In this document: piece by piece, positions 2,183-32,718 of the stretch
Position numbering within the stretch: the stretch's first letter is position 1
Layout of the letters: every line of letters begins with the position of its first letter
DNA from: Patescibacteria group bacterium
Lineage (GTDB): Bacteria > Patescibacteriota > Patescibacteriia > Patescibacteriales > UBA12465
Reading direction: 5' to 3'
Assembly (NCBI GenBank): GCA_016938835.1
Contig: JAFGTW010000026.1
Coordinates: forward strand, 1-41,455
Length of the DNA stretch: 41,455 nt
Program-made: the position numbers and the translations under genes
The notes under the pieces: generated by a model
What the model saw: only the letters and a program-made list of their open reading frames with translations
What the model was told of the DNA's origin: nothing
The model's database searches: none

Positions 2183-2189
2183 ATAAGTT

Positions 2190-3170: not shown

Positions 3171-3174
3171 ATTT

Positions 3175-4329: not shown

Positions 4330-4332
4330 AAG

Positions 4333-4614
4333 TTAAAAATCTTTCTCCATTTTAATGGCTTTGACTGGGCATTCGGCAGCACACAAACCGCAGCCCTTGC
4401 AATAATCATAATCAACTTCAGCTTTTAATTTGCCCTCTTTATCTTTTTTCATCATAATACAATTGTCTGGGCAGAATTTAGCACAACGAGAACAGCCAAT
4501 GCAAATATTTTTATCAATCACTGGTTTTTCAGTGCGCCAGTCTCCTGTTTTATTATTTAAGGCTGAGCCGGGAGTGGTAATTGGTGGTTGAAATCTATTT
4601 TTATTTTCTGACAT
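4333..4614 (-). CDS. porD: 2-oxoacid:ferredoxin oxidoreductase, delta subunit (2x[4Fe-4S] ferredoxin)
   Basis: CIGCSRCAKFCPDNC and CKGCGLCAAECP motifs; position between porA and porG. Confidence 0.88.
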   Translation of the reverse strand: MSENKNRFQPPITTPGSALNNKTGDWRTEKPVIDKNICIGCSRCAKFCPDNCIMMKKDKEGKLKAEVDYDYCKGCGLCAAECPVKAIKMEKDF

Positions 4615-5164
4615 ATGTATAGGCCTCAGTAATAGCGGCTTTATTTTTATTAATTAAAGATTGGTCTTTTTCAGCAAATTTTTCACTGATAGCAGATAAC
4701 AAAGATTTTAATTTAATAATTTTATTTTGCTTGATAAAAGCACCTAAAATTACAGTATTAACAATATTTTTTCCTAATAGACGTAGAGCAATTTCAGTAG
4801 CAGGGCTGCTGGTTATATTTTTAGCTGGTATTTTTTTATTTAATAACTGACTAATTGTTTTTGGATTTTCTGGGCTATTAATAATCAATTTAGTATTTTT
4901 TTTTATGCCAAATAAAACCTCGCTGCTATGAAGAAGGCTGGCGTCTTGTATAATTAAAATATCTGGTTCTTGTATTTGCTCACGGGTAATAATAGCTTGG
5001 TTATCTATGCGTACAAAAGATTGAATTGGTGCTCCACTGCGCTCAACACCAAAAGCAGGGAAGGCCTGAGCAAAATAACCTTCTTTAAAGGCGGCCAAAG
5101 CTAAAAGCTCAGCGGCTGTTACCACTCCTTGCCCACCACGGCCATGAATACGAATTTGAATCAT
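4601..5164 (-). CDS. porG: 2-oxoacid:ferredoxin oxidoreductase, gamma subunit
   Basis: IRIHGRGGQGVVTAAELLALAAFKEGYFAQAFPAFGVERSGAPIQSFVRI, typical PorG N-terminus. Confidence 0.9.
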   Translation of the reverse strand: MIQIRIHGRGGQGVVTAAELLALAAFKEGYFAQAFPAFGVERSGAPIQSFVRIDNQAIITREQIQEPDILIIQDASLLHSSEVLFGIKKNTKLIINSPENPKTISQLLNKKIPAKNITSSPATEIALRLLGKNIVNTVILGAFIKQNKIIKLKSLLSAISEKFAEKDQSLINKNKAAITEAYTYVRK

Positions 5165-5171
5165 AAACTAT

Positions 5172-5924
5172 TTATTGGGCTAAAAGCCCGTCAATAATAC
5201 TAGTAAAATATTCTTCTGGATAGTAGCCAGTAATTTTATAGCGATTAATAAACCAAGTTGGTGTACCCTCTGAGCCTAAAAGTTCAGCATCAGCAAAGTC
5301 ATCATTAAGACGATAAAGATATGTTTTATTATCTAAACAAGTAGCAAAATCAGCACTGTTTAATTTTAATTCCTGTGCCATTGTTTTTAATTTGTCGGAT
5401 AGCTCTACTTCATTCAATTTGCTAATATCGTCTTGTTGATTAAATAATAAATGATTCATTTCCCAAAACTTGTTTTGCACGCCAGCACAATTAGCAGCTA
5501 GAGCTAATTCAATGGAGTTCATATGTAAAGGATAGTCACGAAAAGTGATACGAATTTGATCACCGTATTGATTGGCAAGACTTCTAATTACTGGTTCTGC
5601 TTGCATGCAGTAAGGGCAAGCGTAATCAGAAAAAATGACAATTTTTACTTTAGCATTAATTGGCCCTAGACTATAATTTTCTCCGCGGCCATCAATTGCT
5701 TGAGTGATTTTTTGAATTTCAGCTTCTTGGTTAAGAGATGCCTGATTGCCTTTAATATCTTTTATTTGCACAATAATATAATTAGCAGCTGTTACTATAA
5801 AAATTAATAAGAATAGACCAAAAATTATTATAACAACTCCCCACCACTTTTTATACCAGGGAAGTAGTTTATTTTTATGTCTATTCTTCATTTCTAAATA
5901 TTCTATGCGCTCATTTAAACTCAT
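5172..5924 (-). CDS. Membrane-anchored DsbA-family thiol:disulfide oxidoreductase
   Basis: Single TM (WGVVIIIFGLFLLIFIVTAANYIIV) then thioredoxin fold with DYACPYCMQAEPVIRSL and GTPTWFIN cis-Pro loop. Confidence 0.85.
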   Translation of the reverse strand: MSLNERIEYLEMKNRHKNKLLPWYKKWWGVVIIIFGLFLLIFIVTAANYIIVQIKDIKGNQASLNQEAEIQKITQAIDGRGENYSLGPINAKVKIVIFSDYACPYCMQAEPVIRSLANQYGDQIRITFRDYPLHMNSIELALAANCAGVQNKFWEMNHLLFNQQDDISKLNEVELSDKLKTMAQELKLNSADFATCLDNKTYLYRLNDDFADAELLGSEGTPTWFINRYKITGYYPEEYFTSIIDGLLAQ

Positions 5925-6045
5925 ATATTTGATTGAAAAAAGCTTATTTTTTCTTTATACTAAATAAGTATTTAATTTAACTATATTATATCATAAGCAT
6001 CTCTTTGTGGCTATTTAGTTGGTGTTAATTGATAAAATTTATCTT

Positions 6046-6807
6046 ATGAAAATAATTTCTTGGAATATAAATGGGATAAGAGCTGTTATGAAGAAGGGTT
6101 TTGCTTCTTTTTTAAAGCAAGAAAAGCCGGATATTCTTTGTCTGCAAGAGATAAAAATAGATGAAAAGACTAGAAGCAGTTTAAAATTAGAATTTACTGA
6201 TTATCAAGCTTTTTGGCACGGAGCAGAGCGTCCTGGTTATAGCGGTACGGCAATTTTAGTAAAAAATAACTTAAATTATCGGGTTAAAAATGGTTTTGGT
6301 AATGAAGAGTATGATCAGGAGGGGAGAGTACAAGTGTTGGAATTAGAACAAGCTTATTTACTTAATGTTTATTTTCCTAATGCTAACCAAGAATTAAGTC
6401 GCTTACCATATCGCTTAGCTTTTAATGAGGAGCTATTAAAATTTATCAAAAAATTAGAAAAAAAGAAGGCAGTGATTATCACTGGTGATTTTAATGTAGC
6501 TTATCAGGAAATTGATTTAGCGCGACCGAAGGAAAATGAAGGCAAGGCCGGTTTTACTAAGGAGGAGAGAGGTTGGTTTGGCAAATTGTTAAAGGCTGAT
6601 TATCTTGACTCTTTTCGTCTGCTTCATCCGGAAAAAATTCAGTATTCTTGGTGGAGTTTTCGGGCTGCTGCGCGCGTTCGTAATGTTGGTTGGCGGATTG
6701 ACTATTTTGTAATTTCCGCTAAACTTAGAAAAAAGATAAGTAAAGCTTTTATTCTCGACCAGGTTCAGGGATCGGACCATGCGCCAGTCGGAATTGAGCT
6801 TGAATAG
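6046..6807 (+). CDS. xth: Exodeoxyribonuclease III (AP endonuclease family)
   Basis: MKIISWNINGIRAVMKKG, LCLQEIK, GDFNVA, SDHAPVGIEL motifs. The ORF track start at 6019 is a TTG; ATG 6046 preferred. Confidence 0.9.
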   Translation: MKIISWNINGIRAVMKKGFASFLKQEKPDILCLQEIKIDEKTRSSLKLEFTDYQAFWHGAERPGYSGTAILVKNNLNYRVKNGFGNEEYDQEGRVQVLELEQAYLLNVYFPNANQELSRLPYRLAFNEELLKFIKKLEKKKAVIITGDFNVAYQEIDLARPKENEGKAGFTKEERGWFGKLLKADYLDSFRLLHPEKIQYSWWSFRAAARVRNVGWRIDYFVISAKLRKKISKAFILDQVQGSDHAPVGIELE

Positions 6808-6812
6808 TATAT

Positions 6813-9239
6813 ATGTATGATTATCTCAAAATAGAAAAAAAATGGCAACAGCAATGGGTAGAAAGTAATTTATATCAAGTAAAAGAAGATAAGGCTAAAC
6901 CTAAATATTATGTGCTTGATATGTTTCCTTATCCTTCTGGTGATGGCTTACATGTGGGTCATCCAAAAGGATATATTGCTACTGATATTATTGCACGAAA
7001 ACGAAGCATGGAAGGCTTTCAAGTTCTTCATCCGATGGGTTGGGACGCTTTTGGCTTGCCAGCAGAAAATTATGCCCTTAAGAATAAGGTACATCCACGT
7101 GTCGCTGTAGAAAAAAATATTATTAATTTTAAACGCCAATTAAGCTTGCTTGGCTTTTCTTATGACTGGAGCAGAGAAATAAATACTACTGATCCTGCAT
7201 ATTATCGTTGGACACAATGGGCTTTTTTGCAAATGTGGCACAAAGGTTTAGCTTATGAATCATTTGCTCCTATTAATTGGTGTCCTTCTTGTCAGACCGG
7301 TTTAGCTAATGAAGATTTAGATGATGGTTGTTGTGAGCGTTGCGGGACTCTAGTAGAACAAAAACCAATGCGCCAGTGGGTCTTAAAAATTACTGATTAT
7401 GCCGATCGTTTATTAAATGATTTAGATAAATTACCTGATTGGGAAGAAGCAATTAAGGAAATGCAACGTAATTGGATTGGACGTAGCGAGGGGGCGGAAA
7501 TTAAATTTAAAATTAAGAATACAACAGCTAATATTACTGTTTTTACTACTCGCCTTGATACAATTTTTGGTTGTACCTATGTGGTTTTAGCTCCAGAAAA
7601 TGAATTGTTGCAGAATTTGAAAGATAAGATAAAAAATTGGGCGGAAGTGGAAAAATATATTGAAGAAGTAAAAAATAAAACTGATTTACAGCGTACGGAT
7701 TTAAATAAAGAAAAAACAGGGGTCGTTTTAGAAGGAGTTAAGGCTATTAATCCCTTTAATCAAGAGGAAGTGTTGGTTTATGCGGCAGATTATGTTTTAA
7801 ATTCTTATGGCACTGGCGCAGTAATGGCAGTACCGGCTCATGATGACAGAGATTTTGCTTTTGCGATTAAACATAATTTATTAATTCGTCGCGTAATTAC
7901 TGATGAAACCGAAGACGACTTAGACGAAGCTTTCACTAATGATGGCAAATTAATTAAATCTGGAGAATTTTCTGGGTTAAATTCAGCCGAAGCACGTCAA
8001 AAAATGTCTGATTATTTAGAAAAAAATGATGTCGGACAGAAAAAAATTAATTATAAAATTAAAGATTGGGTATATTCTCGTCAACGGTATTGGGGAGAAC
8101 CAATTCCTCTGATTCATTGTAAAAAGTGCGGAGTAGTGGCAGTCCCAGAGAGTGATTTGCCGGTTGTTTTGCCGGAGGTCAAAAGCTATGAACCAACCGG
8201 AACAGGAGAGTCGCCTTTAGCGGCGATTACTGATTGGGTAAATGTTGACTGTCCTCAATGTGGTGCTAAGGCAAAAAGGGAAACAAACACCATGCCTCAA
8301 TGGGGAGGTTCTTGTTGGTATTATCTACGTTATCTTGATCCCAAAAATGAGCAAGCTTTAGTAGCAAAGGATAAAGATAAATATTGGTCGCCGGTGGATC
8401 TGTATGTAGGTGGAGCCGAACATGCTACTCGTCATCTTATTTATGCTCGTTTTTGGCATAAGTTTTTATTTGATATTGGTGTTGTTAGTCATGAAGAGCC
8501 TTTTACTAGTTTAAAACACGTAGGTTTAATTATGGGGGAGGATGAACGTAAAATGAGTAAGCGCTGGGGCAATGTTATTAATCCTGATGATATGGTTGAA
8601 CGCTTTGGTGCTGATGCTTTGCGCGTTTATGAGATGTTTATGGGTCCTTTTGATCAGGCGGCGGCTTGGAATACTAATGGCTTATCCGGAACAAGAAAGT
8701 TTTTAGAAAAAGTGAATCTTATTTTTGATAGCAGGGAGGACTTACCTTTTAAAGAGGATAAAACTATTGTTGCGCTTTTACATAAAACTATTAAAAAAGT
8801 TTCCGAAGATATTGATGATTTTCATTTCAACACAGCTATTTCCGCCTTAATGATTTTGGTTAATGGTATTAGCGAATACAGGCAAATAAATAAAGCCCTC
8901 CCTTTAAATAAGGAACAGTTGGCTTTGTTTCTAAAACTTTTATCTCCACTAGCTCCACATTTAAGCGAGGAATTATGGGAGAAAATAGGGCAGGCGGAGA
9001 GTATTTTTCTTTCCAGTTGGCCAAAGTATGACGAAAAATTAATTAAAGACGAAATTATAACTTATATTGTTCAAGTTAATGGTAGGCTAAGAGCTCAACT
9101 TGAGATGCCAGCTGATGCTACGGAAAGAGAAGTGATTGATCGTGCTCAAGCAGAAGTTGGAGTTATTAAATGGCTAGAGGGAAAGGAAATTAAAAAAATC
9201 ATTTTTGTGCCCGGTAAATTAGTTAATTTTGTGGTTTAA
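6813..9239 (+). CDS. leuS: Leucine--tRNA ligase
   Basis: MFPYPSGDGLHVGHPKGY (HIGH), EDERKMSKRWGNVINPDD (KMSKR), MRQWVLKITDYA. Confidence 0.95.
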   Translation: MYDYLKIEKKWQQQWVESNLYQVKEDKAKPKYYVLDMFPYPSGDGLHVGHPKGYIATDIIARKRSMEGFQVLHPMGWDAFGLPAENYALKNKVHPRVAVEKNIINFKRQLSLLGFSYDWSREINTTDPAYYRWTQWAFLQMWHKGLAYESFAPINWCPSCQTGLANEDLDDGCCERCGTLVEQKPMRQWVLKITDYADRLLNDLDKLPDWEEAIKEMQRNWIGRSEGAEIKFKIKNTTANITVFTTRLDTIFGCTYVVLAPENELLQNLKDKIKNWAEVEKYIEEVKNKTDLQRTDLNKEKTGVVLEGVKAINPFNQEEVLVYAADYVLNSYGTGAVMAVPAHDDRDFAFAIKHNLLIRRVITDETEDDLDEAFTNDGKLIKSGEFSGLNSAEARQKMSDYLEKNDVGQKKINYKIKDWVYSRQRYWGEPIPLIHCKKCGVVAVPESDLPVVLPEVKSYEPTGTGESPLAAITDWVNVDCPQCGAKAKRETNTMPQWGGSCWYYLRYLDPKNEQALVAKDKDKYWSPVDLYVGGAEHATRHLIYARFWHKFLFDIGVVSHEEPFTSLKHVGLIMGEDERKMSKRWGNVINPDDMVERFGADALRVYEMFMGPFDQAAAWNTNGLSGTRKFLEKVNLIFDSREDLPFKEDKTIVALLHKTIKKVSEDIDDFHFNTAISALMILVNGISEYRQINKALPLNKEQLALFLKLLSPLAPHLSEELWEKIGQAESIFLSSWPKYDEKLIKDEIITYIVQVNGRLRAQLEMPADATEREVIDRAQAEVGVIKWLEGKEIKKIIFVPGKLVNFVV

Positions 9240-9242
9240 TGT

Positions 9243-10097
9243 ATGGAAAATATTGCTGCTAAAACTAAAGAATTATGTCGTATTTATGAAATTAAACCCG
9301 CTCGTAGTAAGGGGCAGAATTTTTTAATTAACGAAGGTATTTATCAAGCAATTATTAATGCCGCTCAAATAAAAAAAGAGGATACAGTTTTAGAGGTTGG
9401 GCCTGGTCTGGGGTTTTTAACAGCAGCATTATCAAAAAAAGCGGCGCGAGTAGTGGCAGTTGAGCTTGATGATAAATTGGCTGGTATTTTAACTATTGCT
9501 ATTGATTCTCAAGACGTAGAAAACGTAGAAATAATTAATCAAGATATTTTAAATTTTAATCCAGCTGAACATTTTGGAGAAGATGAAGAATATAGTGTGG
9601 TTGCAAATTTACCATATAATATTACTTCTATATTTTTGAGAACTTTTTTAACTTCAGCTCGTCCGCCTAAATCTTTAGTGTTAATGTTGCAAAAAGAAGT
9701 AGCGGAAAGGATTATTACTACCGCTCCTGATATGACTATGCTGTCTTTATCAGTACAATATTACGGACAACCTAATATTATTAAAATTGTACCTTCCTCT
9801 GATTTTTGGCCAGCGCCAGAGGTGGATAGTGCTATTTTGCATTTTTCCTATGATCGTCCACGCCCAACACCTGAATCTTTAATGGAAGCTAAACATTTTT
9901 TTCGTATTGCTCGTATTGGTTTTAGTGCTAAGCGCAAAATGTTGAAAAATAATTTGCAAGGTGGGTTAAAAATAGGCGCTGATGAGGTAGAAAAAGCCTT
10001 GCTCAATGCCAATATTAATTTAAAGGCTCGGGCGGAAGATTTAAGCTTAGAACAGTGGCAACTTTTAGTTGCTAGCATCACTCCTTTTATGTTATAA
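9243..10097 (+). CDS. rsmA: 16S rRNA adenine(1518/1519)-N6-dimethyltransferase
   Basis: KGQNFLINEGI, VLEVGPGLGFLT, VANLPYNITSIF, FSAKRKMLKNNL. Confidence 0.93.
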   Translation: MENIAAKTKELCRIYEIKPARSKGQNFLINEGIYQAIINAAQIKKEDTVLEVGPGLGFLTAALSKKAARVVAVELDDKLAGILTIAIDSQDVENVEIINQDILNFNPAEHFGEDEEYSVVANLPYNITSIFLRTFLTSARPPKSLVLMLQKEVAERIITTAPDMTMLSLSVQYYGQPNIIKIVPSSDFWPAPEVDSAILHFSYDRPRPTPESLMEAKHFFRIARIGFSAKRKMLKNNLQGGLKIGADEVEKALLNANINLKARAEDLSLEQWQLLVASITPFML

Positions 10098-10146
10098 TTT
10101 TAGTAATCTGGTTTTTATCGGCTATTTATAAAATGCTAAGATTAAT

Positions 10147-10785
10147 ATGTCTGAGAACTCAAATAATGAAGACCTAAATAATGAGAATCGTGTCTCATTT
10201 TTAAAAAGTTTACCCAAGCCTCAACGGATTGCCTTTTTAAGTCTGTCTGTTATTAGCTTGGGTATTATTATTTTGTGGATTTGGCAATTTAATAATCGTA
10301 TTAATAGCCCATTTTATGTAGCAGATAATACGCAGAATGATAATCAAGTTAATGTTAGTGAATTTGAAACAGCGTTATTAAATTTTGACACTGATAGTGA
10401 TGGTTTAACTGATAATGAGGAACGAAATTTATATGGAACGTCGCCTTATTTAGAGGATACTGATAGTGATGGTATTTTTGATAGAGTAGAAATAGAACAG
10501 GGTACAGATCCTAATTGTGCTACGGGGCAGAATTGTAATGGTGAAATTGAGGTAGTGGCTAACGATGTTGTCGTTAGTGCTCCAGTAGTTTTACCTAATA
10601 ATAATGCTTTAGGGGATAGTGCAAATACTGATAGTTTAGAATTAATGATGTCTGGTCAAGCTGATGTTGCTCAGTTAAGAGCTTTATTATTAGATAGTGG
10701 TGCTGATCCAATAATGTTAGAGCAGTTAAGTGATGAGGAGTTATTAAAAACTTATCAAGAAATGTTGGTTGGGCAAAGCCAATGA
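10147..10785 (+). CDS. Single-TM protein with thrombospondin type-3-like calcium-binding repeats
   Basis: N-terminal TM (IAFLSLSVISLGIIILWIW); DTDSDGLTDNEERNLYGTSPYLEDTDSDGIFDRVEIEQGTDP repeats. Confidence 0.7.
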   Translation: MSENSNNEDLNNENRVSFLKSLPKPQRIAFLSLSVISLGIIILWIWQFNNRINSPFYVADNTQNDNQVNVSEFETALLNFDTDSDGLTDNEERNLYGTSPYLEDTDSDGIFDRVEIEQGTDPNCATGQNCNGEIEVVANDVVVSAPVVLPNNNALGDSANTDSLELMMSGQADVAQLRALLLDSGADPIMLEQLSDEELLKTYQEMLVGQSQ

Positions 10786-10823
10786 TTTAAATAATTTTTA
10801 TTTAGAAGTTTAATTGAAAACTT

Positions 10824-13800
10824 ATGCATAATAGACCAAAAGTTTCCATTAAATGGCATAAATTTGGAACGATTTTTATGTTGCTGATTTTAGTCAGTTC
10901 TTTTTTTATGTTATCGCCTAAACCCGTTCAGGCGCAGATTGACTTTAATCAAGCGGTGAATAATATTTTAACACCTGTTTGGGACTGGCTAAAAAAAGCT
11001 TATGAAAAAGGTGGGGCCGCTGCTTTTCAAAAAACAGTAAGAACAGCTTTAAATAAGGTCGCTTATGATACCGCTACTTGGCTTGGTTCGGGAGGTGAAG
11101 GTCAGAAACCGATGTTTGTTACTCAGGGTTGGGGTGATTATTTAGCTCAAATTGGTGATGAGGCGGCTGGGCAATTTATTGAAGAAGCGGTTAATAATTG
11201 GAATCGTAGTATTCAGAAAGATAAAAGTGTAGACCAGTGTGATGTGAATTTTTCTGATTGCATTTATACTTGTGCGGATGAAGAGGCTGAAAAATTAGAT
11301 GATTGTAATAATAATTGTCTTGCTACTTATAATACTTGTATTAATTCTGCTAATGGTGGCGGAACCGTGTTGACTGGACGTGATGGTGTAACTAGCGTGC
11401 AAGCGGTAAATACTGTGGCGGTTTGTCAGCCATCTTCAATTGATGCTAAGTTAAAAATTTCTCTCGGTTTGGTTGACTACAATCGTCCGCAAGCGCCAAA
11501 TTGTAGTGCTTCAGAATTGGTGGCTAATTGGTCTGATGCGGCTGAACGCATGGTTGCTTTTAAGAGTCCAGATTTTTTAGATAATTTTTCTAATATTTTT
11601 AATCCAGTATCAAATGATTTAGGTATTTTTGCATCTTTACGTACCGACATGACTAAGAAAATGGAGACTTCGACTAAAATTAGTGAAACTAAGTTAATAG
11701 CTGATGGTGGTTTTTTGGATATGCAAGATATAGCTGGTAATTTAGTGGGTATGCCTGGCGACGCTGAAACTAAGAAGGAAATTTCTGATCAGAACTATAT
11801 TAGCAATATGGCTACTTTTTCTGGGGATGCCTTAATTGATGCTGCTAACGTTTTTTTAAATCAGCTCGCTCTTTCCGCTTATAGTAAGTTCATGAGTAAT
11901 TTGGGTAAAAAGGCAACTAGCAATAACAACAACTCTTTTACTAACGCTAGTTATGATCCCAACATTCGTTATGGAGAAACAGCTGTTAAAGAGAGCGCTG
12001 CTAGTATTATTGAGCCAGATTTTGGAGTGCGGGCTGACTATGACATTTTAACTTCTTTAAGTATTTGTCGTGATCACAACAATCCTGGACCAACAGAGTG
12101 TGTTATTGACGATAAATTAATGCAGGCAGTAACAGAAAAAAAGACAGTGGCAGAAGCAATTCAGGATGGATATTTGCATAAAAACTGGTTATTCACTGCT
12201 GATTATCGTGACACTAGTTATAGTTTACGTAATTTGGAAATAATGCGTAAATATCGCTTGATTCCGGTTAGCTGGGAAGTGGCTGCTGCTTCTAACAAAG
12301 ATGCAAGTTTAATTGATCTTGTTTCTTGTTTTAGTGCTAATGATGAATATAATGAATATAGTTCAAATTTTAATGTAAATGATCAAAGTTGGTGTCGTAA
12401 TTTGGTTGATCCTAATTGGGTTTTAAAGGCTCCTCTTAATTATTGTGCCAAACAAGGCTTTAGTGCTCAGATTCTTGATACCTCTTTTATTACTGTTGGT
12501 GTTGAAGGTCAGCCTGATACGATTCAAATTACTCGAGCTGATGATTATTGTGCTGATGAGCAGAGTTGTATTCAAGAAAGAGCGGATGGTAGTTGCGAAG
12601 CTTATGGTTACTGCCAGTCAGAACGCCGTACTTGGAACTTTGATTCTAATTCTTGTGAGCCTATTGATAATACTTGCAGCGCTTTTATTAACGTAAATAG
12701 TAATCAGCGCATAGCTTATTTAGAAAATACTTTAGATTACGCCGATTGTAATGCTGATTCAGTTGGTTGTAAGCGTTATTCTCTTTTTGGTCTGTATGAT
12801 CAAGTAACTTCACAGGTTGATTGGTCTGAAAATACTAGGGATAATACTTATTTTAATGGTAATTTAAGTTCTTGTTCTTCGACTGACGAAGCCTGTACTG
12901 AAATGATAAGAGTAAAACCGGGCTGGGGCTTAAATTTAATTATGGGCGCTGATTTTGTCGATGATAATATTGGTGACAGTTTGGTTGATTCTCAAATTAA
13001 TAACTATTGGAATATTTGGTCAACCGGTAATAAGGAGGCTAGAATTATTGATTCTTTTGAGTTAGACACTAATTCTAATGGTAAAGCTTTATTTATAACT
13101 TCTAGAGATAATGAATCTCCTAATAAAACTATTGGCGTTTTTTCTAATAATGCTATGCCTTTAGTGCCGAAAAACTTTAATGTTTTGCCAGATGAGACCT
13201 ATACTTTAAGCGCTGATGTTTATTTGCAAGAAGGAGCACAAGTATCTCTTGTTTTAGGCAATGATTATGTAGCAACAGTAGACACTAGAGATAAGAATGT
13301 TTGGCGCCATTTATCAGTTACTCGTAATTTAAAAGATAAGCCTTTATCTGAGATGTCATTTTTGGTGATTGGTGCTAGTGGCAGCGCTGAAACTCAAGTA
13401 TCCTTTGCGGTTAGAAATATGAAATTGGAAATAACATCTTGGGATTCTGGTTTTTCCAGTTATGGTAATTTTAAGACCTATGAGCGAGTAATCCCTCCAT
13501 ATTTAGAGGATACTTGTTATATTGATGCTAATTCCAGTAGTCCAGATTATCGTTTGCGGGCTGACGCTCCTGCAGTTTGTGATAATTATGCCCGTCAATG
13601 TAATCAAGATGAGGTTGGTTGTGAAAGTTATCAAGAAGCTAACACTGGTTTTAAAGTGGCCGCGCAGGTAGTTTCATCGGATTATTGTGACGCTACTTGT
13701 AATGGTTATGATCTGTATGTTGCTAAGGAAAGTAATTTTTATTCTCCTTATATAGAAAAATTGATTCCTCAAAATAGTACTAGTTGTAGTGCAGAAGCAG

Positions 13801-16800
13801 TTGGTTGTAGTTCTTTCACTAATCTTGACGAAGTAGCCGCTGGTGGTGAGGGGCAAGAATATTATACTCAACTAAAACAATGTATTAAGCCAGGGATTGA
13901 TTGCGCTGATTTTTATACTTGGGTAGGAACAGAAGAGAGTGGTTATCAGTTGAAATCCTTGTCTCTTAAAAAAGATGTAAATGGCAATCCATCTGTAACT
14001 TCTAATGATTCAGCTTTATGTAATCAGGAAATTTTTAATTTAACTCCAAGCGATCCCAAATTTAATTCAGATTGCCGTCAGTTCTATAATAAGGCTGGTA
14101 ATATTTCTTATCATTTATCTGCCAATACTATTACTTGTTCAGAAAATTGTCATGCTTATCGCTTAACTGAAAATAATATTGATGCGACTATTACTAGTAG
14201 TTTCTATTGTAGAGGTGCTAATTCTTGGATTACTAAAAATAATGAAAGTAGTAATAGTTTCTGGAATACTGAAAATAATACTTGTTATGTTTGTAAAAAT
14301 GGAGGTATATGGAGTAGTCAAGATCAAGCTTGTATTTATCAGGCTATTCCAGACGAAAGCAAGTCTTGTACATTTCAACAGAATGGTTGTCGCGAATATA
14401 ATGGTAGTTTGGGTAATAATATACAGATGCTTGCTGCCTATAGTTTTGAAATGGGTCTCGATGGCTGGGAGGGGCAGTGTGGCGATGCTGCTGTTAGTTC
14501 ACAAGTTGTGAATGTAAATAATGGTCATTCATTATATTATGATCGTCTTGCTACACAGACAACGGAATGTGACAGTAACGCTAGCTTTGCTCATATCCGC
14601 CGTATAATAGGCGCTAGCGTTACATCAGGTGATGCTTATAATGTTAAATTTACTGCTAGTGCCAGTGCTGCTACTAATGTACGCCTGGCATTAATGAATG
14701 GACAGGGCGATATTTCTTACTTTAATGTTACTGAAAGGAATTCTAATGGAAATTTTGTTGTGCCGGGAGACAATGAATGGCGTAGTTATGAATTAAATTT
14801 GGTTTCATTGGATCATGAGATTGATGATAACGAGTCTTTAATTATAATTGCTGATAAAGATTTTTATTTAGATAACATGGTTTTAACAGCCATTAATGAT
14901 CGTTATTATTTAATAAAAGATAGTAGTACCATTCCAGATGTTTGTTTCTATGACTTATTGGATAATTATCAGGGACCTGATTATAATTTAGGTTGTTCAT
15001 TGTATTATAATCGTGCTGGTAATAGTAATTATTTGCGTCAATTTAGTAAACTTTGTCAGGATTCAGCCGTTGGATGTGAATTAATGATTAGCACGGCTAA
15101 TTATAATGATTATAAGTCTGGTATTTGGCAGGACACCAATAATAATGGTTTTTGTGATAGTGATGAAAATGGGTGCGTGGAGGTTGCTGGTGATAGTTTT
15201 TCTTATGTAATTTATGACGAGAATAAGCGTTGCAACAGTGCTGATTTAGGTTGTTCTCGTCTGGGAGAATCTTCAACCGGCGGTAATAGCTTTGATTGGA
15301 GTGATGTCTTTAAGAAAAATAATCCTAATAATTACGACAGAATTTTATGTGCAGCTGATGATGCTGGTTGTGAGGCCTGGCAATATGTTGATGGTTCCGG
15401 TATTTCTTATTTTAAAAATCCTGGCAGTGATGCTTGTGTTTATCGTATTAGTTCAGATCCAACTAAACAAGGGAAATCTTGGTATAAAGTGCCAGTTAAG
15501 CGTTGCGACTTAAATGATAGCGGCTCAATTGATGGCACTGAAAAAAATCAGTCTATTTGTGCAACTGATAATGATTGCGCTAATAATAGTCAGTGTTTAA
15601 TTGATAACAATGACTATGATTGTCCGACATCATACTTTAAGACTTTTGGTTTTGGTGGAGGGGGTAATCAAGTTCCAGTTCCTTCAGAGTCAGCCGCTTT
15701 ATGTAGCGCGGCATCTTCTGGCTGTAGCGAATATATTGATCCGGTTAGCGCCTTTTCTGCTAATTTGATTATTGATCCGACCTTAGAGAGCTTTGGTGGC
15801 GTTTGGAATGGTAGTCCTCTTAAGCAGACAGTCACAATCCAGCCTAATAAACTTTATATACTGTCCATTGATAATCCTTCTGATTTGGCAACAATTAGTT
15901 CCGATGTTGAACTTCAGTTACCGGTGGGAGTTTCTATTTTGCAAGAAGATAATAATTTAAGTGCTTCTACTTATACAAGTTTAATTATTCCTAAGACAGA
16001 ACCACGCAAGAGAATTATTTTTCATTCTCGCACAAACACGTCGGCGGTTATAAGTGGCGCAGCGAAGACCTATGAGGTGCAATTGAAGGAGGTTATTTTA
16101 GATTATCAGTTTCAACAAAATATTGATAAAACTAGTTGTAATGGTTTGGTAAATTTTGATAATGGCTGTATTCTCTTTAATGAGCGTTCAATTAATGGTG
16201 CTCAAGGCTTATTATCTTTAAGCGGCGGCTGGGATGCGGCTGCTAGTACAGACGGAAATCCACCAAGTTTATGTAATGGTGATAATTGTAGTGCGAATCA
16301 ATTAATAAAAGTACGTCCAAATCGCGTTTGCGCTTCTTGGTTGGATTGTTTAACCTATGCAGTTAATCCTGAAACCCAAGAAAAAACTTGTTATGCCTTA
16401 GGTATTTGTAACCAGTTAAATGATAAGAATGAATGTAGTAATTTCTTAGAATCTGATGATGTACAATTAGGCAGCACGAATGCAAATATTGGTAAATTAA
16501 CTGGATATTCTGTTTTGGATCAATATAATTTAGCTGCCATGAAAGAGGTGGGCTTAAATACTAATGCTCATTACAATTTTGAGTCAGCTACTCAAGCATT
16601 GGATTGTAAGAGTGATAATGGCGGATCATGTGTTTTTGAAAATAATTTGTCGTCTGATAGTATTATTAATTCACCAGATAATGCACCAACTGATTATCCG
16701 GCCGAAGGTAAGACCTATTTGCGTGTTATGGCTGGTCAACAAATATCGCCACATTCTATTAATTCTCCTATTATTGTTCAACCGGGGAAAGATTATTATT

Positions 16801-18854
16801 TGAATTATCTACTTAATACCAAGGGTAGTGGTTATGAAGCTAAGATTTCGATTTATAATTCTGTTAATAATAGTCTCATTGCTTCAGCTACGGCTAGCTC
16901 TGTTAATGGTTGGGAGAGAAAAGTTTTCAAATTTACTATTCCGACTGGAGTGCAGTCAATTAGTATTTATTTAGGCGCAAATAATGTTTCTATTAGGGAA
17001 GAGCGTTATGTATATTTTGATGACGTTAATATTGAACCAGTCTTACAAGTTAAAGAGGGTGAATATGTTGCTAAAGAATGTCGTCTTTATCCAAGTCAAG
17101 ATGCAGTTTCTTGTACTAGTAAAAATAGTCAGGTGGTAAGTGATGGTCTTGTCGGTTATTGCTTGCAACATGATCCGGCAAATAAGAATGTTTGCTTAGT
17201 TTGGTATCCAGTTGATGAAATAAGTTCAGCGGCTAAATCTGGCCGTTCTAATCTTGGTTACCAAGGAGTCTTTCCTCTAAATTATTGTACCGAAGCCAAT
17301 GGTAATTTTACTTTAACTAAAAAGGTAGTTGCCAATGTTATACATACTAGCCAGGATCGATCTCATAATGGTGATAATGGTTTTATTGATAGCGACAAGG
17401 ATAGTTGTGCTGTAAAAGTAGATTCATTTAACTGTGGTGATTCAGAAAATTATCAAGCTTTTGCTATAAATGATAAATTAAATTGGAATCATGAAACGGT
17501 TTATTGTGCGCCAAAAATTGGCGATAATGTTTTAATAGCTGGACCTATGATAGAGATAGATAATTGTGGCACAGAGGTTTTATCATGGGCCTGGGTAAAG
17601 TATAATAAGATTAACCAATTGGAGACTCTCAGTTGTAATTATACTGGTTGTAATGATGCTTGTAATGATAAGTGTTTTAGTGATGATGATGGAGAAGTCT
17701 GTTTAGATGCTTGCAGTCCTATAGATGAAATGAAGAATGCCAATCCGCCTATTCGTGTTTATGATTATGATCATCCAACCGTTGATGAAGATCAGTTAAA
17801 ATTAATTTCTTCGTCTGATCCAGAAGATGTTTTCTATCCAACTTGTAGTCAGTTTGTACAAGTGGTTGATTCTGCTGGTAATAATAAAGCTTGGGCTGGA
17901 CGTACTAGTAAGACAAGTATTTATCCTTTTGACACTCCTTTATTCTTCCGTGATCAAACTACTTATTACGGTACAAATTCAGCTTATAATATGACTTCTT
18001 ATGGTCGTAATCGTAGTCTAGTGCCTTTTGGTGCAGCAACTTTCCCGGATGATTTTAATATCTTAGCTAGTAATCCAGTTAAATTTTTAAATCAATACTC
18101 TAGCAATATTGATCAAAATGCTTTTGCTGGTAGACCTTATGATTGTTCTGGTGCAGGTTGTAAAAATATTGGTTACTGTAGTCTAAATCCCAATGTTATT
18201 TGTTTGCTTGATACTACGGTTAGTTCTAGCACTTCTTTAGTTAACCAAAGATCTTGTGGTAGTATTAATGGTACTTGTGTGCCTATGTGGAATGGTGATA
18301 ATATTGTCAATAATAACTTCTTTTCTTCTTTAAATATTTTAAAGAATATTTTTAACACTTCTTACGGACAGTTTGATTATAATAGTCAGATGGCTACTTA
18401 TGATAATTCTGCTAATGATCCGTTATATTCAGGTGATTACACACCACAAACCAAATGTAGTACTTCTAATAACCACCTGTCTAGCAGTGATGATAATTAT
18501 AATACTTATTACTGTTCTATTTGGCCTCGTATTAATAATGTGAAGTTAGATGGCTTTGATATGGATGGCCGTAATATTGCTAATGGTATCCATGTCTTAA
18601 CCTTTAACACTATTGTAGATTTAGAACAGCAACCGCTTAAAGATTTAATTATTGATTGGGGCGATGGTTCTGTACAAAATCTTGTTAATCAAGATCATCA
18701 TCCTGATATTAATTCTCCGCATCGGGTATATCATTATTATGCTAATGACGTAAATAATGCTACTATTAAGATTAAAGCAACGGATAATTGGGGCACTTTC
18801 TGTTGTGTAAAAAATAATACGCCTGATTGTCTTAGTGTGAGTGATTGTATGTAG
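10824..18854 (+). CDS. Giant (2676 aa) secreted Cys-rich modular surface protein
   Basis: Uninterrupted ORF; N-terminal signal/TM (FMLLILVSSFFMLSPKPVQA); about ten C-x5-[GA]-C motifs; several jelly-roll-like modules; C-terminal WGDGS...HxY...KATDNWG resembling a PKD domain. Confidence 0.85.
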   Translation: MHNRPKVSIKWHKFGTIFMLLILVSSFFMLSPKPVQAQIDFNQAVNNILTPVWDWLKKAYEKGGAAAFQKTVRTALNKVAYDTATWLGSGGEGQKPMFVTQGWGDYLAQIGDEAAGQFIEEAVNNWNRSIQKDKSVDQCDVNFSDCIYTCADEEAEKLDDCNNNCLATYNTCINSANGGGTVLTGRDGVTSVQAVNTVAVCQPSSIDAKLKISLGLVDYNRPQAPNCSASELVANWSDAAERMVAFKSPDFLDNFSNIFNPVSNDLGIFASLRTDMTKKMETSTKISETKLIADGGFLDMQDIAGNLVGMPGDAETKKEISDQNYISNMATFSGDALIDAANVFLNQLALSAYSKFMSNLGKKATSNNNNSFTNASYDPNIRYGETAVKESAASIIEPDFGVRADYDILTSLSICRDHNNPGPTECVIDDKLMQAVTEKKTVAEAIQDGYLHKNWLFTADYRDTSYSLRNLEIMRKYRLIPVSWEVAAASNKDASLIDLVSCFSANDEYNEYSSNFNVNDQSWCRNLVDPNWVLKAPLNYCAKQGFSAQILDTSFITVGVEGQPDTIQITRADDYCADEQSCIQERADGSCEAYGYCQSERRTWNFDSNSCEPIDNTCSAFINVNSNQRIAYLENTLDYADCNADSVGCKRYSLFGLYDQVTSQVDWSENTRDNTYFNGNLSSCSSTDEACTEMIRVKPGWGLNLIMGADFVDDNIGDSLVDSQINNYWNIWSTGNKEARIIDSFELDTNSNGKALFITSRDNESPNKTIGVFSNNAMPLVPKNFNVLPDETYTLSADVYLQEGAQVSLVLGNDYVATVDTRDKNVWRHLSVTRNLKDKPLSEMSFLVIGASGSAETQVSFAVRNMKLEITSWDSGFSSYGNFKTYERVIPPYLEDTCYIDANSSSPDYRLRADAPAVCDNYARQCNQDEVGCESYQEANTGFKVAAQVVSSDYCDATCNGYDLYVAKESNFYSPYIEKLIPQNSTSCSAEAVGCSSFTNLDEVAAGGEGQEYYTQLKQCIKPGIDCADFYTWVGTEESGYQLKSLSLKKDVNGNPSVTSNDSALCNQEIFNLTPSDPKFNSDCRQFYNKAGNISYHLSANTITCSENCHAYRLTENNIDATITSSFYCRGANSWITKNNESSNSFWNTENNTCYVCKNGGIWSSQDQACIYQAIPDESKSCTFQQNGCREYNGSLGNNIQMLAAYSFEMGLDGWEGQCGDAAVSSQVVNVNNGHSLYYDRLATQTTECDSNASFAHIRRIIGASVTSGDAYNVKFTASASAATNVRLALMNGQGDISYFNVTERNSNGNFVVPGDNEWRSYELNLVSLDHEIDDNESLIIIADKDFYLDNMVLTAINDRYYLIKDSSTIPDVCFYDLLDNYQGPDYNLGCSLYYNRAGNSNYLRQFSKLCQDSAVGCELMISTANYNDYKSGIWQDTNNNGFCDSDENGCVEVAGDSFSYVIYDENKRCNSADLGCSRLGESSTGGNSFDWSDVFKKNNPNNYDRILCAADDAGCEAWQYVDGSGISYFKNPGSDACVYRISSDPTKQGKSWYKVPVKRCDLNDSGSIDGTEKNQSICATDNDCANNSQCLIDNNDYDCPTSYFKTFGFGGGGNQVPVPSESAALCSAASSGCSEYIDPVSAFSANLIIDPTLESFGGVWNGSPLKQTVTIQPNKLYILSIDNPSDLATISSDVELQLPVGVSILQEDNNLSASTYTSLIIPKTEPRKRIIFHSRTNTSAVISGAAKTYEVQLKEVILDYQFQQNIDKTSCNGLVNFDNGCILFNERSINGAQGLLSLSGGWDAAASTDGNPPSLCNGDNCSANQLIKVRPNRVCASWLDCLTYAVNPETQEKTCYALGICNQLNDKNECSNFLESDDVQLGSTNANIGKLTGYSVLDQYNLAAMKEVGLNTNAHYNFESATQALDCKSDNGGSCVFENNLSSDSIINSPDNAPTDYPAEGKTYLRVMAGQQISPHSINSPIIVQPGKDYYLNYLLNTKGSGYEAKISIYNSVNNSLIASATASSVNGWERKVFKFTIPTGVQSISIYLGANNVSIREERYVYFDDVNIEPVLQVKEGEYVAKECRLYPSQDAVSCTSKNSQVVSDGLVGYCLQHDPANKNVCLVWYPVDEISSAAKSGRSNLGYQGVFPLNYCTEANGNFTLTKKVVANVIHTSQDRSHNGDNGFIDSDKDSCAVKVDSFNCGDSENYQAFAINDKLNWNHETVYCAPKIGDNVLIAGPMIEIDNCGTEVLSWAWVKYNKINQLETLSCNYTGCNDACNDKCFSDDDGEVCLDACSPIDEMKNANPPIRVYDYDHPTVDEDQLKLISSSDPEDVFYPTCSQFVQVVDSAGNNKAWAGRTSKTSIYPFDTPLFFRDQTTYYGTNSAYNMTSYGRNRSLVPFGAATFPDDFNILASNPVKFLNQYSSNIDQNAFAGRPYDCSGAGCKNIGYCSLNPNVICLLDTTVSSSTSLVNQRSCGSINGTCVPMWNGDNIVNNNFFSSLNILKNIFNTSYGQFDYNSQMATYDNSANDPLYSGDYTPQTKCSTSNNHLSSSDDNYNTYYCSIWPRINNVKLDGFDMDGRNIANGIHVLTFNTIVDLEQQPLKDLIIDWGDGSVQNLVNQDHHPDINSPHRVYHYYANDVNNATIKIKATDNWGTFCCVKNNTPDCLSVSDCM

Positions 18855-18930: not shown

Positions 18931-19359
18931 ATGAAAAAGTATCTTTTTATTTTCTTTATTTTATTTTTTGTGTCATGCACAAAAGATAATACGACTTCTG
19001 GCACAGAAGAAGAGCCGGATGAGCCTGAGAGTGTAGAATATAAAAGTGTGATAACAATTAATTTTGTCATCCCAGATAATGTTACTCTATTGGGTACAGA
19101 TGATATCTGGATATTAGATTCTAACAATAACTATATTACTAAAAGGTTAGAAACTACTTATCCGGTAACAACCGCAGTTTTGGTTGGTGATACAGTTAAG
19201 AAATACTTACATAAAAAATGTTATGTGAGGTGCGAATTGTCCAAATTAATGTATGGGCATAATTATATCTATATGGATCAAGCACCATTTATCATGAAAG
19301 ATAGCGTATCAGTAACATTTTATCCTTCCAGTGAAACAGTCAACGAATATTATCCGTAA
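18931..19359 (+). CDS. Putative lipoprotein
   Basis: MKKYLFIFFILFFVSC lipobox followed by TKDNTTSGTEEEPDEPE acidic linker. Confidence 0.7.
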   Translation: MKKYLFIFFILFFVSCTKDNTTSGTEEEPDEPESVEYKSVITINFVIPDNVTLLGTDDIWILDSNNNYITKRLETTYPVTTAVLVGDTVKKYLHKKCYVRCELSKLMYGHNYIYMDQAPFIMKDSVSVTFYPSSETVNEYYP

Positions 19360-21328: not shown

Positions 21329-21919
21329 ATGCCTCTTGACGATGAGCTGATGCGCAATCAAACAGAAAAAACGGATAATTCTGCCAGTAATAGCGCTGAT
21401 AGGGCTGGTGCTTTGCGTCAAGCTCAGCGTGGCGAAAAAAATACTGACAATCCTGAGAACGCTAATAATGATTTACGTAGCTCCAGAATGACGGCTATGC
21501 GAGCTAGGGCTAGTAAGTTGAAAAATAAATTAGCTGTTGTACAAAAAAGCGTTAGTGTTGATGCTAGTAAATTACTACAAGCTGCTTGGCGCAATATAAT
21601 CATGAGTTTTGGTTTTTCTTTTCTGTATGTTTATGTTCATTTGTTTTTGCAACAGATTTTTGGTAAGAAACTTTTTGCTCCACTGGGATCAGAATGGCGT
21701 GATCGACCAGGCTTAACTATAGAAGAACGAGAAAGAATGGGAGCCCCTTTTAAATTAATGGAATCTTTTGGAGTGGGCTGTTTGACTATTGTGTTATTTA
21801 TTGTGGTTATTTTTTTCTTGTCTGTGTCTGCTTTAATAACTGAGGTGACAACTAATCCTATTCGTAATGCATTAAAATTATTGTTAGAAGGATTCAAGAG
21901 TTTTTTAACGGATAAATAA
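21329..21919 (+). CDS. Hypothetical membrane protein upstream of virB6-like gene
   Basis: Charged N-terminus then two hydrophobic segments (NIIMSFGFSFLYVYVHLFLQQIF; GVGCLTIVLFIVVIFFLSVSALI); same strand, 15 nt upstream of the VirB6-like CDS. Confidence 0.7.
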   Translation: MPLDDELMRNQTEKTDNSASNSADRAGALRQAQRGEKNTDNPENANNDLRSSRMTAMRARASKLKNKLAVVQKSVSVDASKLLQAAWRNIIMSFGFSFLYVYVHLFLQQIFGKKLFAPLGSEWRDRPGLTIEERERMGAPFKLMESFGVGCLTIVLFIVVIFFLSVSALITEVTTNPIRNALKLLLEGFKSFLTDK

Positions 21920-21934
21920 ATATTAGCTTAATTT

Positions 21935-24682
21935 ATGAGCTTGAAAATTATTAATTTTTTAAAAAAGTATAAACCAGTTTTATTGGTTGTTTTGGTGTTT
22001 GCTTTAAGTTTTATAGTTGCACCGCAGGCTTTAGCTGGTGTCAGTGATTGGGCGGGGGAAGTGGTCGGTGGTATTATTTATGTTTTTATCTGGACTTTAG
22101 GATTAGTGCTGATTTTAGTAATAAAAGGCCTTCTGTTGGTAGCCACATATCAAAATTTTATCAGTTCAGGGGCGGTTATTGAAGGTTGGGTGGTAGTGCG
22201 TGATCTAGCTAATATGTTTTTTGTGGTTATTTTGCTGATTATAGCCTTTGCCACCATTTTACATTTAGAGGAATATAATTATAAAAAATGGCTGCCAAAA
22301 TTAATTTTGATGGCTATTTTAATTAATTTTTCTAAAACAATTTGTGGTTTATTGATTGATGTTGCGCAAATTATCATGTTAACTTTTGTGAACGCTTTTA
22401 AGGATGTAGCTGGTGGTAATTTAATTGACATGTTAGGCATTAAATCAATCGTCACACTAGCTAAGGGGAATGATGATGTGGGGTTTTGGGCTATTGTGGG
22501 GGCATATATTTTGGGACTTATTTACATGATTGTGGCTTTGGTGGTTATTACTACTATGATGATGGTATTAGCCATGCGTATAGTAATGATTTGGATTTAT
22601 GTAGTTTTATCACCTTTAGCTTATTTGTTATCTGCTTTTCCAGGGGGAGCAAAATATGCTTCTGAATGGTGGAGCGAATTTATTAAGAATTTAATTGTTG
22701 GTCCAGTTTTAGCCTTTTTCATTTGGTTGTCTTTTGCTGCTTTACAGACTGGAACATATTCTGACACTGCTCAAATAGTTGGCTCTAGTGCTAGTTCTAC
22801 AGCTGAACAAACAGCTTTTGCTAATTCTATTGCAACTACAAATAGAGAAAAAGAAAAGATTACTGAGAAACCACCAATGGTAACAGAAGCATCTACTCCA
22901 GGAGTTTTAATTAAGTTTATTATTGGCATTGGTATGCTCCTTGGTGGTCTGAAAATTTCTCAACAAATTGGTGGCGCCGCTGGTGCAGTAGCCGGAAAGG
23001 GAATGAGCAAGCTTTCAAGTATGGGAGCTACTACAGCTGGATTTGTTGGTGGAGCTGCTATTAGCACTACCCATTGGGCAGGCAGAAAATTAGATCAAGG
23101 ACAAATGGCTTTGCAGAGAAAGGCGGGTATACAAAGAGCGAGATCATTTAATCCTGTGCTAATGAAAAAAGGCTGGCAAGCCTCTAGAGAAGAGGCAAAA
23201 GAAAAATATTATAGCAAAAGTAATGGCGCCAATGCTTGGCATGATACCTTTAATAAGTATTCAGATATAAAACAATATGGCTCTATACGTAAAGGCAAGA
23301 AAAGCATGTCCAAAGATTTGGGCAAGGCAAATAAACTAAGATTAAGTAAAAATCAAGATGAGTCTGATTTAGATATTCTAGAAAGACGCAAAGGTTATCT
23401 TGATTTATCTGAATCACAACGCGTCAGTAAAATAGATGAATTAGCTGATAACAGAGATTCAATTATTGCCGAATATGTTAAGAAAGATAATCGTGATGTA
23501 GATGATGCTGAAAAGTTATCTACTGCTGAAAATAATTTTCGTGAAGATATGAAGGTGTTAACCCCATCTACTGATGATAATGTAAAACGCGCCTCTATTG
23601 TTAGTCAAATTAATGCTAAACAGACTGATGTAGCAAATCAGGAGAAAGAAATCTCTAGTCTTGAGGATGTTCGTAGAAGCCTTGGTGGTATTAAGTTAGG
23701 GTTTAGTTCTTCTCATATGTATGATCCTGTTTATAGTAAGATGGGTAATGATGAGTATCAAGAGAAAAAACAAAAAGAAATGTCAGCTCGTACTAATGAA
23801 GATACTTTTGCTCTAACAACAGAATTAATTAAAGCCTATAAGGAGAAGGATACTGTGGGGGTAGCCTCGGCTTTAAAGCTTTTATCTAAAAATAATGATC
23901 TAAATAGTGCCTTACAGGATGATCGTGTTTCTAGTATTATGACTGCAAAGGGTGGTATTTTAGAAACTTTGGCTGAGAAAGATGTGTTGGGTGAGGATGG
24001 TAAACAAAATATTAACAGCATTAAAAAAGATTATAATTCAAATCGTGTTTCCCCAGCTTATATTCAGGCTTTAGTGCAGGGCTCTTTGTTGAAAACTGGT
24101 GTCAATTCTGATTTAGCTGGACGTTATGCTAATGACGTTGGTCTTATTAATTTTGCATCTGGTAACGGTGGTGCTTATGGCATTGCTAATGGTGATGTAG
24201 CGAGTGGAGAATATAAATTTAGTGACATTCATTTTGATGTGGATACAGGTGGCTTGGAGACATCAACGACACGAATTGATGAAACAGTGGGTAAATTTGC
24301 CACCATGGAGAGTCAATCAAAGATGAGAGCTATTCATCCAGATACTATACTTAAACAGAATAAGTATGGAGAAGCAACTGGCCTTAGCGGATTAGGAGAA
24401 GCAATGCTCAAAAGTCTTAACGGTCATGATTTGGGACAAATCTCTCGTTTACGCACCGACCTGGTTAATAAATTTGGTAAGAGCGATCAGGCCATGAAAG
24501 ATGCTATAGCACTTATTAAAAAATTAGAGGCTAGTGGTAGTGACATCGAAAAAGCTCAAGCCAGTAACATTAAATATTTTGTTGGTTATATTCAAAGTAA
24601 AAAATCTTCTGGAGGAGATAGTAAAGATGCTGCTAAAATAGAGCAAGCTTATAAAGATTTGGAAAAAAAATTTAATGCTTAA
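21935..24682 (+). CDS. VirB6/TrbL-like T4SS polytopic membrane protein with long soluble C-terminal region
   Basis: Signal peptide, about 6-7 TM helices in the first ~350 aa (for example WTLGLVLILVIKGLLLVATY, MFFVVILLIIAFATILHLEEYNYKKWLPKLILMAILINFSKTICGLLIDVAQIIM), then a charged ~550 aa C-terminus. Confidence 0.75.
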   Translation: MSLKIINFLKKYKPVLLVVLVFALSFIVAPQALAGVSDWAGEVVGGIIYVFIWTLGLVLILVIKGLLLVATYQNFISSGAVIEGWVVVRDLANMFFVVILLIIAFATILHLEEYNYKKWLPKLILMAILINFSKTICGLLIDVAQIIMLTFVNAFKDVAGGNLIDMLGIKSIVTLAKGNDDVGFWAIVGAYILGLIYMIVALVVITTMMMVLAMRIVMIWIYVVLSPLAYLLSAFPGGAKYASEWWSEFIKNLIVGPVLAFFIWLSFAALQTGTYSDTAQIVGSSASSTAEQTAFANSIATTNREKEKITEKPPMVTEASTPGVLIKFIIGIGMLLGGLKISQQIGGAAGAVAGKGMSKLSSMGATTAGFVGGAAISTTHWAGRKLDQGQMALQRKAGIQRARSFNPVLMKKGWQASREEAKEKYYSKSNGANAWHDTFNKYSDIKQYGSIRKGKKSMSKDLGKANKLRLSKNQDESDLDILERRKGYLDLSESQRVSKIDELADNRDSIIAEYVKKDNRDVDDAEKLSTAENNFREDMKVLTPSTDDNVKRASIVSQINAKQTDVANQEKEISSLEDVRRSLGGIKLGFSSSHMYDPVYSKMGNDEYQEKKQKEMSARTNEDTFALTTELIKAYKEKDTVGVASALKLLSKNNDLNSALQDDRVSSIMTAKGGILETLAEKDVLGEDGKQNINSIKKDYNSNRVSPAYIQALVQGSLLKTGVNSDLAGRYANDVGLINFASGNGGAYGIANGDVASGEYKFSDIHFDVDTGGLETSTTRIDETVGKFATMESQSKMRAIHPDTILKQNKYGEATGLSGLGEAMLKSLNGHDLGQISRLRTDLVNKFGKSDQAMKDAIALIKKLEASGSDIEKAQASNIKYFVGYIQSKKSSGGDSKDAAKIEQAYKDLEKKFNA

Positions 24683-32714: not shown

Positions 32715-32718
32715 TCCT

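Follow-up and report, generated by a model that had tools for sequence, protein, structure and literature searches.

Mating pairs formed by F-like T4SS are stabilised by TraN, an exported, Cys-rich outer-membrane protein of ∼600 aa that contacts the recipient cell and needs disulfide formation. In the Gram-positive conjugation system of pCF10, the surface adhesin PrgB is described as having a polymer adhesin domain and being anchored to the wall through LPxTG (PMC12857230). According to the available part of a survey of Patescibacteria, no PrgB-like adhesins were detected in this group, and that part describes no giant or Cys-rich T4SS component (PMC12102498). In the saccharibacterium Southlakia epibionticum, the T4SS locus is essential for epibiotic growth, and separate proteins with glycan-related domains are also essential (PMC10633639). 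Very large surface proteins occur in Absconditicoccaceae (PMC13059738), and the accessible portion of a study of Peribacteria reports a 14-gene cluster for large, very Cys-rich extracellular proteins (mean 7.2% Cys; PMC4736985). Large or Cys-rich surface proteins are, in short, an already known kind in Patescibacteria. The open-access literature searched, as far as its texts were accessible, contained neither the family described here nor its linkage to a T4SS or its conserved head, a search that cannot prove novelty; the family is not mentioned in the available parts of the T4SS papers PMC10633639 and PMC12102498.

A giant, predicted secreted protein conserved across a class

The window, that is, the whole stretch of 41,455 nucleotides of patescibacterial DNA analysed, contains an open reading frame at 10824-18854 (+) that runs uninterrupted from its ATG, codes for 2676 aa and occupies 19% of the window. 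An earlier note on this DNA had described it as a single 8-kb ORF, and the frame was recovered exactly. The gene is present as a single copy in its own genome (800,563 bases, 98.9% complete), and a plasmid search gave no match. Since orthologues were found in 55 of 60 relatives, with identities falling to ∼31%, the frame is not a product of chance. The orthologues among the listed matches are free of stop codons, with the exception of one relative (G029, contig C6, 30400-38262; L010/L060) whose copy contains two in-frame TAG codons; a pseudogene, an assembly error and recoding are all possible. An apparent open frame of 26,141 aa (G500, contig C8, 1665-80000) was discarded because 72 kb of masked N had created it artificially.

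The nearest named relatives of this genome are Candidatus Falkowbacteria, followed by Uhr- and Buchananbacteria, which we take to belong to class ABY1. A profile of the protein core (residues 196-1660) found matches, most of them full-length, in 226 of the 239 genomes of the class (E ≤ 1e-10); the 13 genomes lacking a match possibly reflect assembly gaps. The genomes that retain the gene measure about 0.5-1.5 Mb. Matches beyond the class, in a sample of the phylum, covered jelly-roll segments only (E 1e-5 to 1e-9; see below) and were not accepted as orthologues for that reason. Across the phylum, 111 of 118 genomes had VirB4, which indicates that the T4SS is phylum-wide and the giant protein class-specific.

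Hydropathy analysis revealed a single hydrophobic stretch at the N-terminus (∼residues 12-32), followed by an AxA-type cleavage site (after ...PVQA, before Q). A signal peptide was accordingly assigned to residues 1-38 (10824-10937, +), in agreement with the secretion signal proposed earlier. The AxA motif was present in most rows of the orthologue alignment, and a simple signal pattern was matched by 40 of 72 orthologues. No other segment of the protein approached membrane-spanning values. Neither an LPXTG motif nor a membrane segment was found at the C-terminus of the window protein, which ends in ...NTPDCLSVSDCM.

Cys blocks alternate with jelly rolls

The protein contains 102 Cys (3.8%), clustered in blocks and absent from residues 228-414, 692-897, 1250-1373, 1635-1771 and 1937-2085. 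The pattern C-x(4-7)-G-C occurs nine times, versus about one occurrence expected from shuffled sequences. The signal peptide is followed by an N-terminal helical domain (residues 39-330; 10938-11813), supported by hmmsearch and hhalign and modelled by AlphaFold2 with low to moderate confidence, and by a further helical, Cys-free region (residues 331-413; 11814-12062) whose pLDDT is partly low. Long helices were predicted at residues 41-177 and further helices up to residue 413, beyond which the models consist of beta domains. Next comes a conserved domain with the first Cys block (15 Cys; residues 414-700; 12063-12923; mean identity 0.55 among 14 orthologues), and residues 411-530 reached a pLDDT of ∼80-92. 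Jelly roll 1 is CBM4-like (residues 701-885; 12924-13478): it matched a laminarinase CBM in a PDB profile search (E 4.9e-4), CBM4 in Foldseek, and jelly roll 2 in hhalign (E 4.4e-8). The second Cys block (residues 886-1199; 13479-14420) is built of C-x(4-7)-GC modules and was modelled as beta-rich, with pLDDT mostly >70. Jelly roll 2 (residues 1200-1362; 14421-14909) corresponds to Pfam CBM_4_9 (PF02018), which scored 39.7 bits in the whole protein (E 7.8e-10; curated cut-off 25.9) and 25.0 bits, slightly under the cut-off, on the segment alone; its PDB profile match to a xylanase CBM had an E-value of 1.1e-8.

The third Cys block (residues 1363-1640; 14910-15743; 18 Cys in 1358-1645) leads to a beta domain (residues 1641-1770; 15744-16133), also beta-rich in the AlphaFold2 model, for which there was neither an hhalign match to jelly rolls 1, 2 and 4 nor a Pfam match. 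A fourth Cys block (residues 1771-1889; 16134-16490; nine Cys in 1766-1895) precedes jelly roll 4 (residues 1890-2085; 16491-17078), considered CBM_4_9-like from a PF02018 match below the cut-off (E 0.0044) and from hhalign matches to jelly rolls 1 and 2; the three jelly rolls are thus mutually related. The conserved core ends with residues 2086-2165 (17079-17318; five Cys; mean identity 0.56). It is followed by a variable C-terminal region rich in indels (residues 2166-2564; 17319-18515; mean identity 0.25-0.39, gaps 17-23%), least conserved (0.25) and with numerous indels at residues 2166-2340, and finally by a predicted PKD-like beta sandwich (residues 2565-2660; 18516-18803) with a WGDG motif conserved among orthologues. 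All these features lie on the + strand.

The AlphaFold2 models of residues 1-1200 (mean pLDDT 71, pTM 0.40) and 1480-2676 (mean pLDDT 77, pTM 0.66) were packed too loosely overall for the shape of the whole protein to be read. Matches in the PDB profile searches included CBMs of xylanases, a laminarinase and others, Foldseek matched CBM4-type modules, and CBM_4_9 was carried by 11 of the 14 family members scanned. A profile of the C-terminal domain matched nothing in the PDB. Resemblances to phage tail and receptor-binding proteins, from a fold search against viral proteins, were read as generic jelly-roll similarity and not as kinship.

The modular architecture announced in the earlier note is supported. 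Its description as Cys-rich throughout holds for the richness only, as the blocks alternate with nearly Cys-free jelly rolls. Likewise, the PKD-like C-terminus is upheld in part, by a predicted, conserved WGDG beta sandwich; in Pfam, the window protein gave no PKD match and one of 23 orthologues gave a weak one (PKD_4, E 0.0052). The CBM4/9 jelly rolls and the conserved N-terminal domain did not figure in that note.

The Cys framework of the protein is almost invariant. Among 14 orthologues, 60 of the 73 core Cys (residues 196-2165) were invariant, and mean identity was 0.94 for core Cys versus 0.46 for other residues. By segment, it was 0.50-0.56 in the Cys blocks versus 0.31-0.42 in the jelly rolls and the beta domain. 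These properties bear on whether the protein might be a T4SS substrate, an effector or toxin delivered or shed toward a partner cell. The position of the gene inside a T4SS locus (see below) and the variable C-terminus would be in line with this, but a Sec-type N-terminal signal, dozens of conserved Cys able to form disulfides, orthologues in ∼95% of the class and the lack of any catalytic or toxin domain in Pfam and NCBIfam scans of the family make it very improbable.

The gene belongs to a conserved T4SS locus

Directly upstream of the giant gene, at a distance of 38 bp, lies a gene for a membrane-anchored TSP3-repeat protein (10147-10785, +; PF18884, E 3.1e-7). Downstream and on the same strand are p196, a small membrane protein of the locus (21329-21919); a VirB6-like polytopic membrane protein (21935-24682), so called for where it lies and for its pattern of membrane segments, and without a Pfam match; p542 (30650-32278), conserved between the VirB6-like gene and PrgI; PrgI itself, of VirB3 type (32280-32714; PF12666, E 2.3e-6); a conserved 246-aa protein without significant Pfam match (32668-33408); a VirB4/TraG-type ATPase (33417-35318; PF19044, E 3.2e-29); and an NTF2-like, possibly VirB8-like protein (35330-35947), for which PF25155 scored below its cut-off (E 2.1e-4) and VirB8 gave an E-value of 0.66. 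p196 and p542 recur in the conserved gene order (see below). The 246-aa gene adjoins VirB4 in nearly all loci compared, from several classes, and may represent the N-terminal part of VirB4 as a separate gene. Immediately after the giant gene, at 18931-19359, a lipoprotein-like ORF of 142 aa was seen that recurs in one close relative only; its style resembles that of Bacteroidota lipoproteins, an impression that might suggest acquisition of the gene from a partner.

A divergent arm of the locus, on the − strand, contains a DsbA-like gene, POR subunits and two genes with pilin domains. The DsbA-like thioredoxin-fold protein (5172-5924; PF13462, E 2.1e-23), conserved in this arm, may be what oxidises the Cys blocks. 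A VKOR candidate in the same genome was discarded as spurious, since it scored below the cut-off and overlapped a T4SS pilin gene, and no VKOR partner was identified for DsbA. One pilin-domain protein has a Cys-rich tail (2190-3245; T4SS_pilin PF18895, E 3.8e-8); the other (18-1316) combines T4SS_pilin and NlpC/P60-like domains (PF18895 and PF00877, both slightly under cut-off) and is possibly a wall-cutting pilin, judging from its domains. At 18-5164, porB, pilin and porA follow one another, and this interleaving of pilin-domain genes with pyruvate:ferredoxin oxidoreductase-type genes is kept in many relatives. Elsewhere in the genome, contig C39 (L241) encodes two adjacent large proteins, at 3651-6332 (893 aa, 26 Cys) and 6578-12250 (at least 1890 aa, 124 Cys), both of which have an N-terminal T4SS_pilin domain joined to Ig-like/TIG domains; a third Cys-rich protein after them is cut by the end of the stretch. 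On contig C33 (L242:4804-7400), six small T4SS_pilin genes stand in tandem, with another pilin gene ∼2 kb upstream.

Of 80 loci from named records, 67 had sufficient sequence for the upstream neighbour to be judged, and in 64 of these the TSP3 gene directly precedes the giant gene. A VirB6-like gene on the same strand lies downstream of the giant in 41 of 44 loci; in three loci it was undetectable within the 8-10 kb available beyond the giant. The gene order ExoIII, LeuRS, KsgA, TSP3, giant, p196, VirB6-like, p542, PrgI, VirB4N, VirB4, NTF2-like was found in ten genomes of the taxonomic order, each traced as far as its contig was read. GluRS, PfkB, SahH and MetK are inserted in some of these ten loci only, and in several relatives no housekeeping gene was found to separate the giant from the T4SS genes. 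The T4SS-like genes reported in the earlier note are real, namely PrgI, the TraG/VirB4 P-loop ATPase, two T4SS_pilin proteins and, by pattern and position, a VirB6-like protein. The note had also held that homologues lacking co-occurrence with the T4SS-like set would count against its reading; instead, synteny with TSP3, VirB6-like, PrgI and VirB4 genes proved class-wide.

The link between the giant gene and the patescibacterial, MPF-FATA-like T4SS is strongly supported, and the gene very probably belongs with this system functionally. The opposite possibility, that the protein serves the cell surface in general, as a scaffold perhaps similar to an S-layer, and that its adjacency to the T4SS is incidental, draws on its huge size, Cys bracing and class-wide occurrence, and on the large Cys-rich extracellular proteins of Peribacteria described in the accessible part of PMC4736985. 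It would, however, leave unexplained both the tight class-wide synteny and the N-terminal domain common to proteins of the same slot in other classes (see below), and we regard it as improbable.

An N-terminal domain in common with slot proteins of other classes

Most of 20 loci from other classes repeat the order KsgA, TSP3, X, VirB6-like, PrgI, VirB4, X being a small slot protein of about 290-800 aa encoded before the VirB6-like gene. When profiles built from the giants only were run against the 1073 ORFs of these loci, slot proteins alone scored E<0.01. Those matched came from five of the 20 loci: L192, L198, L191 and L207 with either profile, and L193 with one. The N-terminal domains of giants and slot proteins aligned in hhalign with a probability of 97.6 (E 3.1e-12) over ∼130 columns. 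A profile of this domain built with the slot proteins among its sequences will necessarily recover them; the independent tests are the giants-only profiles and hhalign. In the remaining loci, the X proteins had no detectable relation to the giant. Against the PDB, the N-terminal domain profile gave only matches with E>1, none of them convincing structurally.

Because this domain is common to slot proteins of other classes, the giant looks like an enlarged form of an accessory protein, and most simply it would be a class-specific enlargement of a T4SS accessory protein. The direction, enlargement rather than shrinkage, is suggested by the long form being confined to one class. A more far-reaching version is possible but doubtful: that an accessory slot domain present in several classes was enlarged in one of them into a giant disulfide-braced, glycan-binding arm, with which the T4SS itself would dock to and contact a partner, and which would replace the adhesins and outer-membrane core used elsewhere.

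The same slot and common domain could also point to a structural T4SS part, an extracellular conduit or needle that would reach from the S-layer or wall to the envelope of the partner and take the place of the outer-membrane core missing from these systems. The strict Cys framework suggests a rigid assembly, and homologues of the outer core are nearly absent near virB4 according to the available part of PMC12102498. Carbohydrate-binding-type domains and a variable C-terminus would nevertheless be unusual in a conduit, and the slot proteins of other classes are far smaller; we consider such a conduit unlikely.

Proposed role

Nearly all relatives in the class keep the giant gene in the T4SS cluster, and it is for this reason probably the means by which these cells grip or contact their hosts. 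Stated in full, the protein would be the extracellular contact protein of the T4SS locus, braced by disulfides, of glycan-binding type and docked to the T4SS, a proposal whose chances we judge to be about even. Sec would export it, and its Cys would be oxidised on the outer side of the membrane, possibly through the DsbA-like protein encoded nearby. The N-terminal helical domain would dock to the membrane part of the T4SS, through the VirB6-like protein, the TSP3 protein or both, while the remainder would project as a stiff, disulfide-braced arm. The jelly rolls might then bind glycans of a partner cell and so hold the T4SS against it, the variable C-terminus tuning the choice of partner. In this way, the protein could fill the place that PrgB-type adhesins have in Gram-positive conjugation, though built from parts unrelated to theirs.

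An adhesin or host-attachment role, put forward in the earlier note, would fit the link to the T4SS, the presence of CBM-type jelly rolls and the variability of the C-terminus. Counted in favour of the proposed contact role were also the class-wide retention of the gene, the conserved Cys, the N-terminal domain found again in slot proteins, the signal without further membrane segments, and the greater variation of the jelly rolls and C-terminus relative to the Cys blocks; we infer from the sequence that the protein may mediate host adhesion. The secreted fibre also suggested in that note received no direct support. Several points weigh against a contact role: jelly rolls are a common fold and in many cases bind no sugar, so that glycan binding here is putative; genomic linkage would not by itself prove physical association; the window protein showed no anchor; the N-terminal domain had no convincing structural match and was modelled with low to moderate confidence; and three loci had no detectable VirB6-like gene.

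Across a whole class of uncultured bacteria, the giant protein is thus a tangible candidate for the part of the T4SS, so far missing, that makes contact. It provides a marker for the T4SS and domains that can be tested, the jelly rolls for glycans and the N-terminal domain for docking. Its small counterparts in other classes may allow genetic tests of the N-terminal domain where culture exists.

Comparison with known systems

With TraN, the giant has in common the description of a Cys-rich, exported contact protein; this likeness, drawn from description alone, is a lead only, and no Pfam or NCBIfam match to TraN was found in the window protein. The Peribacteria proteins are likewise similar by description, being patescibacterial, very large, exported, rich in Cys and proposed to act in attachment, but unlike the giant they are not linked to a T4SS in the accessible part of PMC4736985.

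PrgB and the giant are alike in being large surface proteins of the exported type, in having genes that accompany a Gram-positive-type T4SS (PrgI, VirB4, VirB6-like), and in being proposed to hold partner cells together. The giant differs in lacking a polymer adhesin domain (Pfam, NCBIfam) and an LPXTG motif, and in having Cys blocks, CBM4/9-type jelly rolls and an N-terminal domain of its own. As to the CBM4/9 family (PF02018), no catalytic glycosidase domain was detected with the giant's modules, whereas jelly roll 2 exceeds the Pfam cut-off, jelly rolls 1 and 4 are related to it by profile, and CBMs in the PDB are among the best fold matches. Finally, the small slot proteins of other classes (about 260-670 aa; e.g. 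L193:9687-10775 and L198:10217-11272) have no Pfam or NCBIfam name and no detected jelly-roll/Cys-block extension, but they resemble the giant in their position before the VirB6-like gene, in a hydrophobic, signal-like N-terminus and in a related N-terminal domain.
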